Assembly (NCBI RefSeq): GCF_004364555.1
Contig: NZ_SOAM01000002.1
Span: forward strand, 248,001 to 312,000
Reading direction: 5' to 3'
DNA from: Amnibacterium kyonggiense
GTDB lineage: Bacteria > Actinomycetota > Actinomycetes > Actinomycetales > Microbacteriaceae
Length of the DNA stretch: 64,000 nucleotides
A program made the position numbers and the translations under genes. Of this stretch, positions 59,341 to 64,000 are shown one piece after another; the stretch's first letter is position 1; every line of letters begins with the position of its first letter. Below the pieces are notes generated by a model. That model made no database searches, was not told where the DNA came from, and worked only from the letters and a program-made list of their open reading frames with translations.

Positions 59341-60588
59341 TCAGTCGGAGCGGCCCCGCGACTGCCGGAGGGCGCGGGCCTGGTCCACGTCCTGCTCGTG
59401 CTGCTTGGCCTTCTTGTCGGACTGCCGCGTGTCCCGCATCGGCAGCTGGATCTGCTCCTCGGCGGCGATGCCGGCCTGGAGCTCGCGGCTCCGCTCCAGC
59501 TCCGCGTCGAACTCCGCGCCGAACAGCAGCACGAGGTTCGTGATCCAGAGCCAGAGCAGGAACACGATGACGCCGGCGACCGCGCCGTACGTCTTCGCGT
59601 AGCTGCCGCCGCCGGTCACGCTCAGGTAGATGCCGAGCGCGGCCGTCGCAAGGCCCCACACGACGAGCGCGAGCAGCGACCCCGTGCTGATCCACTTGAA
59701 CTTCGGCTGCCGCACGTTGGGCGAGAAGTAGTAGAGGATCGCGATCGCGGCGATGGCGATCACGACGAGGATCGGCCACTTCACGATCTGGAAGACCGTG
59801 AGCGCGACCTGGCCGATGCCGATCACGTTCGCGACCTGCTCGACGATCGGCCCGGTCGAGACCAGGATCAACGCGCCGAGCACGACGAGGACGACGACGG
59901 CGACGGTCACCAGCAGCTGCGTCGGGCGGAGCTTCCACACCGGCCGCCCCTCCGGGATGCTGTAGATCCGGTTCATCGCGCGGCCGAACGCGCCGACGTA
60001 GCCGGACGCGGACCACAGCGCCCCGAGGATGCCGACGACGAGCCCGATGCCCACGCCCTGCGTCTTCGACGCGTTGTCGATCAGCTGCGTCACGATGTCG
60101 TAGACGCCGGGGGAGCTCGTCCGCACCGGCGCCAGGAACTGCGTCGTCAGCTGCGCGATCGCGCCGGGGCTCAGGAGGCCGAGGATCGACACGATCGCGA
60201 TCGCCGCCGGGCCGAGCGCCAGCACGGAGTAGTAGACGAGCGCCGCCGCGAGATCGGTGCACTGGTCGGAGCCGAACTCCTTCGCCGTCTTCTTCAGCGC
60301 GTAGGTCCAGGTCGGCTTGTGGAGATCCTCCGGGCCCTCGGGCTTCGAGGGCGCGTCGGGAGCCGGGGTGCTGCCTGGAGCGACGTCCCGCTCGGAGGTG
60401 GAAGCGCGGCTCCCCGCGCGGTCCGGTCCCGTCCGCCGACGCCACGGCTTGCCGGGATCGCGCCGGATCGCGTGGTCCACCGCAGCCGCCGCGCCGACGA
60501 GGCTGGCCGAGATCACGGAGATCCCGGCGGCGGTGATCAGGTCGCCGGAGCGGCCGCCGCCGCCGCCCTGCGTCCGCGGGGTCGGCAC
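59341..60588 (-). CDS. YihY/BrkB family membrane protein
   Basis: Predicted 415-residue YihY/UPF0761 protein. After a ~110-residue basic, Pro/Ser-rich N-terminus come six membrane segments; family features are DLAAALVYYSVLALGPAAI, GLVVGILGALWSASGYVGA (split: ALWSASGYVGAFGRAMNRIY) and GAVAGVIVFLLWLWITNL. It was long called ribonuclease BN but is now thought a membrane transporter-like protein of unknown role. GTG 60588 starts one base after the upstream gene's stop, so translation is coupled. The longer open frame to 60720 is not used. Confidence 0.85.
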   Translation of the reverse strand: MPTPRTQGGGGGRSGDLITAAGISVISASLVGAAAAVDHAIRRDPGKPWRRRTGPDRAGSRASTSERDVAPGSTPAPDAPSKPEGPEDLHKPTWTYALKKTAKEFGSDQCTDLAAALVYYSVLALGPAAIAIVSILGLLSPGAIAQLTTQFLAPVRTSSPGVYDIVTQLIDNASKTQGVGIGLVVGILGALWSASGYVGAFGRAMNRIYSIPEGRPVWKLRPTQLLVTVAVVVLVVLGALILVSTGPIVEQVANVIGIGQVALTVFQIVKWPILVVIAIAAIAILYYFSPNVRQPKFKWISTGSLLALVVWGLATAALGIYLSVTGGGSYAKTYGAVAGVIVFLLWLWITNLVLLFGAEFDAELERSRELQAGIAAEEQIQLPMRDTRQSDKKAKQHEQDVDQARALRQSRGRSD

Positions 60589-60589
60589 G

Positions 60590-60958
60590 TCAGGCCGCCG
60601 ACGGGGTCGAGCCGGAGGAGGGCTTCTTCGTCCGGCCGGTGGGCGGTGCGGGCGTGGGCGCATCGGTGCCGCCGTCGTCCTCCACTCCGGGGGAGGCGGC
60701 GTCCGCGGGCTTCGCGGCATCGGCCGCGGCTGCCGCAGCGCCCTGCACGGTCGAGGCGGCCTTCTCGGCGACGTCGGCGACCTGCGGCGCCTTCTCCTCG
60801 AGCGTGGCCTTCGCCGTCTCGCCGACGCGCTGCACGGTCGGGTTGTCGCGGGCTGTGCCCAGCCGCTCGGTGAGGGCCTCGTAGGCCGGCCGGCCGGCGC
60901 GCGCCCCGACCACGTAGCCGGCGGCGAGCCCGACGACGAACAGGATCGTCCCTCGCAT
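60590..60958 (-). CDS. Small YtxH-like membrane-anchored protein
   Basis: Predicted 122-residue protein. One N-terminal membrane segment (GTILFVVGLAAGYVVGARAG) with the glycine-zipper-like start common in YtxH-type proteins, then a helical stretch (VGETAKATLEEKAPQVADVAEK) cut here to EKAPQVADVAEKAAS, and an acidic, Pro/Thr-rich, lysine-tipped tail. Function unknown. A similar gene accompanies yihY homologues in relatives. ATG 60958 has GAAGGGGGAA. It is coupled to the YihY gene. Confidence 0.7.
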   Translation of the reverse strand: MRGTILFVVGLAAGYVVGARAGRPAYEALTERLGTARDNPTVQRVGETAKATLEEKAPQVADVAEKAASTVQGAAAAAADAAKPADAASPGVEDDGGTDAPTPAPPTGRTKKPSSGSTPSAA

Positions 60959-61129
60959 GGTTCCCCCTTCAGGTCGAGATCAGGTCGGGGCCATGCTGCT
61001 CGCCGGTCGCTGGCAGTCGGGCGGACGTCCAGCGCACTGCCGGGCTCCTCTCAGATCGTGAGGAGCCCGCGCCGTGCCCGGTGTGCAGTCCGGTTCGCCG
61101 CGGCCGGCCGGTCGTGCGAAGGTCGACCA

Positions 61130-62356
61130 ATGAGCCGGGGGAGCGCATCGGGGCGGGCCGCATCGCTGGACGACGCCGATCCGCTCGGCCGGTTCCGTTC
61201 GCGGTTCGTGACGGTCGACGACGTCGTGGCCTACCTCGACGGCAACTCGCTCGGCCGTCCGCTGGCGGTGACGCCCGCTCGGCTCGCGCGATTCGCCGAG
61301 ACCGCGTGGGGCGGGCGCCTGATCCGTGGCTGGGACGAGGGCTGGATGGAGGAGCCCGAGCGCGTCGGCGACGAGCTCGGGCGCATCGTTCTCGGCGCCG
61401 GTCCCGGGCAGGTCGTGGTGGGGGACTCGACGAGCATCCTGCTCTACAAGGCCGTCCGAGCGGCGGTCGCGCTCGACCCGTCGAGGACGGAGGTCGTGCT
61501 CTCCGCCGGCGACTTCCCGACCGACCGCTTCGTGCTGCAGGGCGTCGCGGCCGAGCTCGGGCTGACCCTGGTCGCGATCGACGCCCCGCCCGACGGCGGG
61601 GTCGACCCCGAGCATGTCGCCGCAGCGGTCGGCCCGCGCACCGCCGCCGTCGTGCTCAGCCATGTCGCCTACCGCTCCGCGTCCATCACCGACGTCGAGG
61701 CCGTGACCGCCGTCGCGCACGCGGCCGGTGCGGCCGTGGTCTGGGACCTCAGCCACTCCGTCGGGGCGCTGCCGATCCGGCTCGACGGCTGGGGCGTCGA
61801 CCTCGCGGTGGGCTGCTCCTACAAGTACCTGAACGGCGGACCGGGCGCACCGGCGTTCCTGTACGCGCGGCGCGACCTGATCCCGCGGCTGCGGCAGCCG
61901 ATCCAGGGGTGGATGGGCGCCGATCAGCCGTTCGCGATGGGGGAGCGCTACGTCCCCGACGCGGGCATCCGGCGGTTCCTGTCGGGCACGCCGTCGATCG
62001 TCGCGATGCAGCCGCTCCGCGACATGCTCGAGGTGATCGACGAGGCCGGCGTCGACGCGATCCGGGCGAAGTCCGAGCGGTTGACGGCTTTCGCCGTCGA
62101 GCTCGTCGACGACCTGCTCGAGCCGTTCGGCGCACGGCTCGCGAGCCCTCGGGACGTGGGCCTGCGCGGCAGCCACGTGACGGTCGACCACCCCGCGTTC
62201 CCGACGATGCTGCCCGCGCTGCACCGGCGCGGGGTGGTCCCCGACTTCCGGCGCCCCGATGGGCTCCGCCTCGGGCTGTCGCCGCTCAGCACGTCGTTCG
62301 CGGAGGTCGAGGCCGGGGTGCTGGCGATCCGGGACGAGCTGCAGGTCGCGCGATGA
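61130..62356 (+). CDS. kynU: Kynureninase
   Basis: Predicted 408-residue PLP enzyme of the kynureninase family, cleaving kynurenine to anthranilate and alanine. Features: YLDGNSLGRP at the N-terminus, VVVGDSTSILLYKAVRAA, WDLSHSVGALPI (PLP aspartate) and the PLP lysine K232 in SYKYLNGGPGAPAF. Other genes of tryptophan degradation are not in the window, although trpD, which uses anthranilate, lies 9 kb away. ATG 61130 has GAAGG upstream. Its stop is followed, in the same frame, by an isomerase fragment. Confidence 0.9.
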   Translation: MSRGSASGRAASLDDADPLGRFRSRFVTVDDVVAYLDGNSLGRPLAVTPARLARFAETAWGGRLIRGWDEGWMEEPERVGDELGRIVLGAGPGQVVVGDSTSILLYKAVRAAVALDPSRTEVVLSAGDFPTDRFVLQGVAAELGLTLVAIDAPPDGGVDPEHVAAAVGPRTAAVVLSHVAYRSASITDVEAVTAVAHAAGAAVVWDLSHSVGALPIRLDGWGVDLAVGCSYKYLNGGPGAPAFLYARRDLIPRLRQPIQGWMGADQPFAMGERYVPDAGIRRFLSGTPSIVAMQPLRDMLEVIDEAGVDAIRAKSERLTAFAVELVDDLLEPFGARLASPRDVGLRGSHVTVDHPAFPTMLPALHRRGVVPDFRRPDGLRLGLSPLSTSFAEVEAGVLAIRDELQVAR

Positions 62357-62368
62357 GCGGACTGGCAG

Positions 62369-62536
62369 GTGACGGACGAGCCCGCTCTCGACGCCGCGGA
62401 GATCCGCGCCCGCACCGGCGACCTGGCGCTGGTGATCTGGCAGCGGGCCGACCCGCTTTGCGACCCGGAGCGCTTCTCGGTCTCCGGACCGGAGAGGACC
62501 GCGGCGGCGTTCATCACGGCCCCGATCCACCCGTGA
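62369..62536 (+). pseudogene. C-terminal fragment of a mycothiol-dependent maleylpyruvate isomerase-like protein
   Basis: A 55-codon frame (GTG 62369) reading TGDLALVIWQRADPL, then ERFSVSGPERTAAAFITAPI. This matches the end of MDMPI/TIGR03083-type proteins, where a G-x-x-x-LALLLW-x-R strand is followed by a small acidic/gly turn and a final helix. The N-terminal ~150 residues of such a protein, including the DinB-like metal site, are missing. The preceding in-frame stop is the kynureninase stop, so a deletion joining two genes is likely. It ends 9 bases before the dif site. Confidence 0.4.
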
Positions 62537-62544
62537 TCCGGTCC

Positions 62545-62572
62545 GGCTGACATAATGTGCATTATCGGCGCT
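62545..62572 (-). other. Putative dif site (XerC/XerD recombination site)
   Basis: On the minus strand the arms read AGCGCCGATAA (XerC side, 62562-62572), centre TGCACA, and TTATGTCAGCC (XerD side, 62545-62555). It fits every fixed base of the actinobacterial dif core as I recall it, CCGATAAT and ACATTATGTCA separated by two bases. dif is where XerCD resolve chromosome dimers at the terminus. It lies in an AT-rich gap between the isomerase fragment and the HNH gene. Confidence 0.75.
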
Positions 62573-62592
62573 CAGAGTTCGGGTTGAAGCAG

Positions 62593-62620
62593 CCCGCTCA
62601 TAATGTCTCTTATGTCAGTT
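62593..62620 (+). other. Second, diverged dif-like site in inverted orientation
   Basis: On the plus strand: CCCGCTCATAA, centre TGTCTC, and TTATGTCAGTT, the last close to the consensus XerD arm. The XerC side is degenerate. It faces the main dif site, giving an outer 9-bp inverted repeat CTGACATAA / TTATGTCAG. Confidence 0.5.
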
Positions 62621-62664
62621 TGCTGAGGTCGCTCACGATCGCAGCCGGATCGTGACGTTTCGGA

Positions 62665-63996
62665 TCAGAACGGGCAGTCGTCGCCGGGTGGATCCGCCGG
62701 GCCGGGTTCGACGAGTTCCGGCGGCGCTGGATCGGACGGGTTCGACGGCGGGTCCGTGAAGACCTCGCCCCACGGGTTCCGCCAGTCGACGCTCCCGTTC
62801 TCCCGCAGCTCCTCGTCCCACAGCCCGACCGACTTCGCGAGATGGTGCGGGCGGCTCAGGCTCACGAGGTTGCCGATGTCGGTGACGCCGGCGTCCTGCC
62901 ATTCCTGCACGTGATCGAGGTCGCAGAGGTGCGCGGGACGGTTGCAGCCGGGGAAGCGGCAGAGCTCGTCGCGGAGGGTCACCCACCGGCGCATGTCCGC
63001 GGGCGGCTTCCGCGTCGTCCGATCCATCGCGATCCGGACGCCGGTGAAGGGATCGGTCAGGACGCGGAGGAACGAGGGCGCCTCCCCCGCCAGCTCCTTC
63101 GCGGCTTCGATGGACACCGGGCCGTAGCCGACCAGTCGGGCCTGCTCGGTGGTCCTGCCGAGGGCCGCGAGGGCGGGGATCGTCACGATCGGCGCGGGGA
63201 TCACGCCTTTCCGCATCGGCACCCGGAGGCCCGCCCATGCCGGGTCGGCCTGCTGCTTGATGCCCTCGACCAGCAGATCCATCATGATGTCGAAGCGGAG
63301 CTGCCCGACCGAGCGGGTCTCCCCCTCCCGCAGGCGAGCGGCGATCGCCGCCTTCGTCAGTGCCTGGTCGAATCCCACGATCGGGATCGCCGGCCCGGTC
63401 GCGGCGATCGTCGCGGCGCCGTCGTGCCCGTGGTCGATCGTCACCCTCCGCATCGCGCGGGTCCGCTCGCTCCGCTCCCCCGCGGTGTCGTCCTGCAGGC
63501 GTTCGCGGATCGTGTGCAGCTTCGCCTTCAGGCGCGAGGCCGGAGCGGCGACGACGGCGACCGCGGCCTGCTCGTCGTAGGCCGCGAGGTGCTCGTCGTC
63601 GAGTCCCTCCGCCTGGTCCGCGGCGAGCTCGACGGCCCTCCAGGGGGCGGCGCCGTCCAGGTACGCGGCCCAGACCGCCGGCAGGTCGTCGCGGAGCCGG
63701 ACCGCCGTGTCGAGCAGGCGCGCGACGCGGAGCGGCGACATCCCGAGCCGCAGCCCGATCGACTGGAAGAAGGACTGCGCTCCGAGCGAGCCGCGCTCGC
63801 CGTACTGCGTGCCGTAGCGACCCGCGAGATCCTGCATCGACGCCTCGTAGGCGTCGATGAGTGCGACGGTGCGGTCGGCGTCCGCTCGTCGCAGGTCGGC
63901 CTCGACCTGGGACAGGGCGTCCTGCTGCTCCTCCGCGAAGCGCTCCCGATCGTCGTCCGTGACGAGCACCGGATCATGGCGCTGCTCGATCACCAC
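62665..63996 (-). CDS. DUF222 / HNH endonuclease domain protein
   Basis: Predicted 443-residue protein. The N-terminal and middle parts form the DUF222 (13E12-like) domain (SFFQSIGLRLGMSPLRVARLLD; VTIDHGHDGAATIAATGPA; QLRFDIMMDLLVEGI) and the C-terminal ~110 residues are an HNH nuclease domain: CRFPGCNRPAHLCDLDHVQEW with the zinc cysteines and DH pair, then NLVSLSRPHHLAKS. Such proteins are often multicopy in actinomycetes and their role is unsettled; a mobile-element link is suspected. The GTG at 63996 is 4 bases from the window edge, so the true start may lie outside. It ends in a Pro/Glu-rich tail. Confidence 0.85.
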   Translation of the reverse strand: MVIEQRHDPVLVTDDDRERFAEEQQDALSQVEADLRRADADRTVALIDAYEASMQDLAGRYGTQYGERGSLGAQSFFQSIGLRLGMSPLRVARLLDTAVRLRDDLPAVWAAYLDGAAPWRAVELAADQAEGLDDEHLAAYDEQAAVAVVAAPASRLKAKLHTIRERLQDDTAGERSERTRAMRRVTIDHGHDGAATIAATGPAIPIVGFDQALTKAAIAARLREGETRSVGQLRFDIMMDLLVEGIKQQADPAWAGLRVPMRKGVIPAPIVTIPALAALGRTTEQARLVGYGPVSIEAAKELAGEAPSFLRVLTDPFTGVRIAMDRTTRKPPADMRRWVTLRDELCRFPGCNRPAHLCDLDHVQEWQDAGVTDIGNLVSLSRPHHLAKSVGLWDEELRENGSVDWRNPWGEVFTDPPSNPSDPAPPELVEPGPADPPGDDCPF

Positions 63997-64000
63997 GCTC

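Follow-up and report, generated by a model that had tools for sequence, protein, structure and literature searches.

The chromosome dimer resolution site dif of Amnibacterium kyonggiense was found to have an inverted companion, a second Xer-type site whose core lies 28 bp from the core of dif and which is conserved in all seven genomes of the genus that were compared (the own genome included). From the sequence comparisons described below, the locus was read as dif together with a putative accessory XerD-binding site that is under selection, and this reading is considered probable. In general, dif is regarded as one site of 28 bp. The conserved inverted companion is new, and so is the excess of lone XerD arms that other genera of the family show on the XerC flank of dif; the open-licence PubMed Central titles and abstract beginnings that were searched reported neither inverted nor accessory Xer sites next to an actinobacterial dif (the release of SMC was outside the topics of that search).

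The window (the whole 64-kb stretch of DNA that was analysed) corresponds to positions 248001-312000 of contig C2 of the own genome, and dif occupies 28 bp of its minus strand at 62545..62572, with the XerC arm at 62562-62572, the centre TGCACA at 62556-62561 and the XerD arm, directed towards the low-coordinate replichore, at 62545-62555. A sequence-only reading of the window had proposed this site from a match to all 19 fixed positions of the actinobacterial dif pattern and from its 11-6-11 layout of XerC arm, centre and XerD arm, and both were confirmed: the minus strand at 62548-62568 (C2:310,548-310,568) reads CCGATAATGCACATTATGTCA and matches at 19/19 positions (0.00 matches expected in 64 kb of shuffled sequence), and the layout holds over 62545-62572. 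The search for a rival match that the same reading had called for was made over the whole genome (3,709,865 bases in six contigs) and returned, at up to three mismatches, dif itself and nothing else; the pattern read backwards, used as a control, gave no match. The site is single-copy, as a chromosomal dif should be, the inverted companion having more than three mismatches to the pattern. It also has the 28-bp arrangement of XerC arm, 6-bp centre and XerD arm, the position at a switch of strand polarity and the accompanying XerC, XerD and FtsK-gamma genes of such a site. By sequence, 62545-62572 is the chromosomal dif, putatively resolving dimers via XerC/XerD under the control of FtsK. With up to two mismatches, dif was present in 178 of 199 Microbacteriaceae genomes, members of the genus among them. 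The dif suggested for Frankia alni, CACGCCGATAATGCACATTATGTCAAGT (Kono et al., 2011; PMC3025954), has the whole 21-bp core in common with that of Amnibacterium and is likewise a single copy at a polarity switch, but the passages of that paper drawn on here mention no second site beside it (PMC3025954).

The site lies in a gap of 308 bp between two convergent frames. It had been described as an AT-rich non-coding gap, of which the gap itself stands and the AT-richness is mild only (GC 0.659 vs 0.725 for the window). No Rfam family was matched in 60000-64000. The left neighbour (60317..62356, plus strand; true start later in the frame) is a kynureninase-like PLP enzyme (Pfam Aminotran_5 and KYNU_C), and the right neighbour (62665..63996, minus strand), convergent with it, is a DUF222 protein (Pfam, 53.6 bits) with a weak HNH match (PHROGs HNH endonuclease, 21.1 bits). 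Comparison of the loci by blastp placed a homologue of the kynureninase-like protein no farther than about 2.5 kb from the pair, and on the same side, at four of the six other genus loci; synteny is partial, and those six loci share other frames. A homologue of the DUF222 protein, with 48% identity, is found close to the pair in genome G004, on the opposite side.

The second site lies on the plus strand at 62593..62620, with the XerC arm at 62593-62603, the centre TGTCTC at 62604-62609 and the XerD arm (TTATGTCAGTT) at 62610-62620; its core, at 62597-62617, reads CTCATAATGTCTCTTATGTCA. Its XerD core, TTATGTCA, is intact and its XerC core matches at 5/7 positions. The XerD arm is directed towards the high-coordinate replichore, so that both XerD arms of the pair point outward. 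TTATGTCA occurs exactly twice in the window, once in each site (0.05 expected), and these two were also the only occurrences in 1.96 Mb of sampled own genome. dif and the second site together form a 24-nt inverted repeat with 75% complementarity. The sequence-only reading, which had presented the site as a lone dif and had not mentioned a companion core 28 bp away, is in this respect supported but incomplete, the conserved inverted companion having been overlooked.

The six other genomes of the genus set were those of A. setariae DD4a and Amnibacterium sp. CER49, two Amnibacterium MAGs, and MAGs labelled Microbacteriaceae M67 and 'Acidobacteria' G2_29, which were assigned to genus members because their positions or pair sequences agree. 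The second site is present in all seven; six have a core offset of 49 bp, and the seventh has one of 48 bp. The spacer between the two 28-bp sites (62573..62592 in the window) is not conserved in sequence and its length is kept, apart from the 1 bp by which it is shorter in that one species. The XerD core of the second site matches at 8/8 positions in all seven genomes and the XerC core at 5, 6, 6, 7, 7, 7 and 7 of 7, and the centres are TGTCTC, TGCTTC, TAACGC, TGTTCC, TGGCTC, TGCCTC and GGGCTC. When the seven genomes were aligned with dif as anchor, all ten columns of CTGACATAAG were invariant, as were 16/23 columns of the whole second site, and outside it no invariant column was seen in the left flank (0/70), the spacer (0/24) or the right flank (0/85; total 0/179). 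The flanks and the spacer are about 0.3 identical among the seven species, and dif is invariant across the genus at 20/21 positions. No further TTATGTCA was found in 8 kb of each of the six other genus loci. At the locus of genome G005 (L006) the inverted repeat continues outward past both XerD cores for seven more bases, GGTCGCT on either side, which may reflect recent recombination or conversion.

The pair was then sought more widely. A pair pattern with an exact dif was matched by three of 199 family genomes, all Amnibacterium; A. setariae was missed because this pattern demands an exact dif and its own has one change, and genomes G003-G005 were outside that sample. Another pair pattern, run against 396 genomes of the order, matched the own genome alone. 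A generic inverted-pair scan of genome contigs from 84,980 species returned 11 stretches, six of them from the other genus genomes. The remaining five (L067, L068, L069, L071 and L074; GC 0.26 to 0.49), from other organisms, were judged to be mostly chance, with L069 a possible exception. This last (L069:7882-7936, from Actinobacteria MAG E44_bin5, GC 0.34) is a near-perfect inverted repeat of a dif-like site in which the centres are identical.

Other genera of the family were examined by reading both flanks of dif, about 500 bp each, at 86 + 10 = 96 loci from 58 genera (both flanks complete in 94). A full second site (XerD core 8/8 and XerC core at least 5/7) was found at none of the 96 loci within these flanks, and weaker hits at four (L037, L202, L266 and L269). 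An extra TTATGTCA lay within about 500 bp of dif at 22 of the 96 loci. It was on the XerC side in the orientation of dif at 18 (0.16 expected) and inverted at three (0.17 expected), whereas the XerD side had one in the orientation of dif (0.14 expected) and none inverted; the expected counts were derived from the dinucleotides of each flank. That the relatives carry a bare dif alone is ruled out by these lone XerD arms.

The 18 lone arms in dif orientation on the XerC side (L018-L020, L025, L032-L034, L176, L180-L182, L194, L202, L205, L211, L220, L227 and L266) stand at distances of 169-511 bp, measured from the XerD core of dif, and come from 11 genera; an arm was present at every sampled locus of g77 (three), g59 (three), g32, g28 and g63 (two each). 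The offsets differ even inside one genus. Among the 8-mers of the XerC flank, TTATGTCA showed the strongest enrichment. When each locus was searched with its own 11-bp XerD arm, the XerC side in dif orientation held an exact copy at 9/95 loci and a match of at least 10/11 at 16/95, vs 0/95 for a reversed-arm control and none on the XerD side, and XerC arms were without comparable excess. At 24 loci with 1500-bp flanks, a single further word was found outside this zone, at +560 in a genome richer in AT. Since such arms stand beside dif in other genera, accessory XerD arms look, by sequence, like a wider trait, one that Amnibacterium made into an outward-facing pair; the 74 of 96 loci with no extra TTATGTCA within about 500 bp indicate that not every genome needs the element. 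Some other Microbacteriaceae have, over and above their main dif, dif-like sites whose centres are changed (G138:C9, C10 and C12; G113:C2; G031:C4); these are possibly plasmid (pdif-type) sites.

The replication terminus, which the sequence-only reading had placed at dif, was located there by tests of polar words, by a route other than the one it had relied on. The change of gene-strand preference it had described in this part of the window was not borne out, the coding-strand fraction in the samples being noisy on both sides, and the GC-skew inflection it had predicted near 62.5 kb is absent: skew in 20-kb samples along C1-C5 is flat and noisy, and the cumulative minimum of the window falls near 47-48 kb. 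As plain GC skew is flat in this genome, the position of its extremum is uninformative, and it was dropped as a test of the terminus in favour of polar oligomers. Leading-strand oligomers were learned solely from 40 stretches of C1 flanking dnaA and applied to 40 stretches of C2, where the best change point for words of k=6, 7 and 8 was C2:310,001 (the boundary between the samples at 290-310 kb and 310-330 kb), with dif beside it at 310.55 kb.

The strongest polar 7-mer was GGGGGAG, with a forward:reverse count in the sampled C2 of 90:0 before the switch and 2:192 after it. The switch is confined to an interval of 1.14 kb that contains dif (C2:309,939-311,082; 61939..63082 in the window, from the last forward word at 61939 to the first reverse word at 63082), which was taken as the replication terminus and zone of FtsK convergence. 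The word was one-sided in the samples of other contigs (C3 0:65, C4 0:34, C5 0:12), and on C1 the counts were 15:58 left of dnaA and 145:4 right of it. At the six other genus loci it was 25:0 left of the pair and 0:31 right of it, and at the 96 other-genus dif loci the XerC side gave 8:0 and the XerD side 0:34. GGGGGAG behaves as a putative KOPS-type word, judged by this distribution, and its flip serves as a sharp marker of the terminus where GC skew fails.

The genes for the Xer system were identified by profile matches. The XerD gene is at C2:8.6 kb (TIGR02225, 337.5 bits, above the NCBIfam cut-off of 329.6); the XerC candidate, at C1:1505 kb, has its best fit to TIGR02224 (290.9 bits, under the curated cut-off of 335.15), and FtsK with its gamma domain (82.1 bits) is a 1023-aa frame on C3. 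Besides the XerC candidate, C1 holds ten matches to phage-type tyrosine integrases. Two extra gamma domains were found in adjacent frames of 294 and 175 aa at C2:579-580 kb (L235:1453-2337 and L235:2526-3053, minus strand), with FtsK_gamma at the C-terminus (54.2 and 45.0 bits; Pfam cut-off 30.6), no other Pfam match, and an N-terminus in which hydropathy predicts one or two membrane segments (none scored in one contig-truncated copy of G003). They are followed directly, in the own genome, by a gene for a transglycosylase/transpeptidase PBP. At least three gamma matches are present in each of the seven genus genomes, one match in G003 being just under the cut-off. In the family sample the four genus members have three or four gamma domains each, and of the 195 other genomes 188 have one, three have none and four have two or three. 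These motorless FtsK-gamma proteins, restricted to the genus, are possibly also new; the open-licence PubMed Central titles and abstract beginnings that were searched held no report of such proteins.

The four other-genus genomes with two or three gamma domains (G102, G107, G115 and G179) have no full second site at their dif loci (L176 and L265-L267), and at three of these four loci a lone XerD arm stands no farther than about 500 bp from dif, in the same orientation as dif at L176 and L266 and inverted at L267. Co-occurrence of the pair and the extra gamma domains gave a Fisher value of 0.012 (one genus of 85 for each trait, with hand-set labels), which is not an independent test because it rests on one clade. 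Of the 14 extra gamma domains, 13 retain the Arg that corresponds to E. coli R1289. Reading of the alignment showed E. coli XerD E183/E184 replaced by S and Y in the XerD of Amnibacterium, so that the contact of E. coli gamma with XerD is not conserved here, and an argument for that contact from residues was dropped, its Arg being kept and its XerD partner not. In G208, from another family of the order, an FtsK-gamma domain lies within a frame that is TetR-like by eye (L268:1179-2033, minus strand), a possible warning that gamma is reused for other purposes.

The favoured explanation is that the Amnibacterium dif would be one half of a composite terminus site. We infer that XerD, and in some species XerC as well, would bind the second site as an accessory and would not recombine with dif. 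The invariant XerD arm of the second site, together with the lone XerD arms of the relatives, suggests that XerD binding is the selected property, the arm being constrained within the genus and enriched beside dif elsewhere, and the lone arms of the 18 other loci may be a simpler form of the same element. The centres of the two sites in the window differ at 4/6 positions, on the XerD side, and dif and the second site should for this reason not recombine; at attP of VGJphi, non-homology on the XerD side of the centre bars XerD from the exchange (PMC5357621). The XerC core of the second site, degraded in three of the seven species, counts against the accessory-site reading, as do the 74 loci that lack an extra TTATGTCA and the score of the XerC candidate under its cut-off, and the paired form, found in one clade, gives one origin only.

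The likeliest function of the accessory site would be extra loading of XerD at the terminus for a role outside recombination. dif offers XerD on one side only, and a second XerD on the opposite side would let both replichores meet it, whether through SMC or through FtsK. We infer by analogy that the accessory XerD may serve to release SMC arriving at the terminus, a role to which we give somewhat less than even confidence. Additional XerD-only binding sites (XDS) near dif were reportedly found in the study of SMC release in B. subtilis. The Microbacteriaceae loci differ from B. subtilis in having a single extra arm, at most about 500 bp from dif, and the Amnibacterium arm, known here from sequence, differs further in being inverted, accompanied by a XerC arm and kept at a fixed spacing. 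The likeness is that of XerD acting at the terminus outside recombination, XerD releasing arriving SMC there at least in B. subtilis (PMC11898615). In the plasmid resolution site cer, too, a recombination core is joined to adjacent accessory DNA, which spans about 180 bp and binds PepA and ArgR (PMC5357621), whereas the accessory DNA of Amnibacterium is itself a Xer-type site.

Before the lone arms emerged, the pair had been favoured as a two-sided platform for FtsK, a reading that then gave way to the accessory XerD site and that we now hold to be possible but doubtful. With outward XerD arms, FtsK coming from either replichore would meet XerD first, and the bound recombinases would stop FtsK and be activated on both sides. 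The geometry of the arms fits this, as does the convergence of polar words on the pair from both sides in all seven species; gamma contacts XerD (PMC5052618), and two extra gamma proteins occur in the same genus. Against it, a need for FtsK to meet XerD first finds no support in the passages of the literature consulted, and at 18 other-genus loci the extra XerD arm stands in the orientation of dif, which makes no outward pair.

The second site is unlikely to resolve dimers on its own, by recombination between its sister copies. It has the 11-6-11 layout, its XerC core is complete in four species and the centres of sister copies would be identical, but a second functional dif would conserve both arms and carry the centre of dif, and here the XerC core is weakened in three of the seven species and the centre varies, as against a dif invariant at 20/21 positions. 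In Lactobacillus delbrueckii ssp. bulgaricus two opposite copies of dif lie within a 47.5-kb inverted repeat, a duplication that is expected to complicate resolution and is said to be undergoing elimination (PMC5345009). That case resembles the present one in its two opposite Xer sites at the terminus of a circular chromosome (PMC5345009), and Amnibacterium differs from it in the 49-bp offset, the non-matching centre and the conservation throughout the genus.

A further reading concerns origin, and is compatible with an accessory XerD site: the pair could derive from a relic or domesticated attachment site of a phage or element that exploits Xer, which we regard as improbable. CTXphi attP1 and attP2 are inverted dif-like sites 90 bp apart (PMC4246890), and like the Amnibacterium pair they are close together, keep the Xer arms and have incompatible centres. 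The CTXphi sites are phage-borne and integrate as folded single-stranded DNA (PMC4246890), whereas the Amnibacterium pair is chromosomal and one of its sites is dif. The changes in the second XerC arm are moreover not matched in dif, so that a folded hairpin is not what is conserved, and the hairpin was weakened as a candidate for the conserved form. No viral contig contained the exact generic pair pattern in either arrangement, and the eight neighbouring frames of two genomes (three in the window and five at the A. setariae locus, L066) gave no match to PHROGs structural, packaging or integration families. In PHROGs, two kynureninase-like frames matched a family without known function, and the other matches were the weak HNH one, a weak one to an unknown family (MarR in Pfam) and a FabG-like one.

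That the pair is the operator of a transcription factor whose target resembles the XerD arm is very improbable. The 24-nt inverted repeat would suit an operator, and in A. setariae the pair has a MarR-type frame as its neighbour (L066:1941-2525). The flanking frames of the window, however, converge on the gap, the neighbours vary among the species while the pair is kept in all seven, and the word is an exact repeat of the XerD core of dif. If the second site were the neutral remnant of a small inverted duplication next to an ordinary dif, the differences among species in its centre and XerC arm would be explained; this is hardly credible given the ten invariant XerD-side columns between flanks and spacer that are about 0.3 identical, the offset kept to 1 bp and the enrichment of XerD arms beside dif elsewhere.

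For the family, the accessory XerD-site reading would mean that the dif of Microbacteriaceae is often composite. Amnibacterium, in an extension of that reading which is possible but doubtful, would have made an outward pair of it and added two membrane-anchored, motorless FtsK-gamma proteins that hold the XerD-bound terminus at the division membrane and gate or switch on XerD from both sides without the FtsK pump. Recombination is activated in the absence of the motor by gamma, and even by nine of its residues when these are joined to XerC (PMC5052618), and this independence of the motor is the likeness to the proposed role; the difference is that the extra gamma domains of Amnibacterium lie in separate, predicted membrane proteins. 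If linked to the pair, these proteins would separate the motor and activator functions that are joined in FtsK. Composite dif loci would offer natural material on the role of XerD at the terminus beyond recombination, and they bear on whether FtsK must approach the XerD side of dif and on whether extra binding of recombinases marks or holds the terminus.
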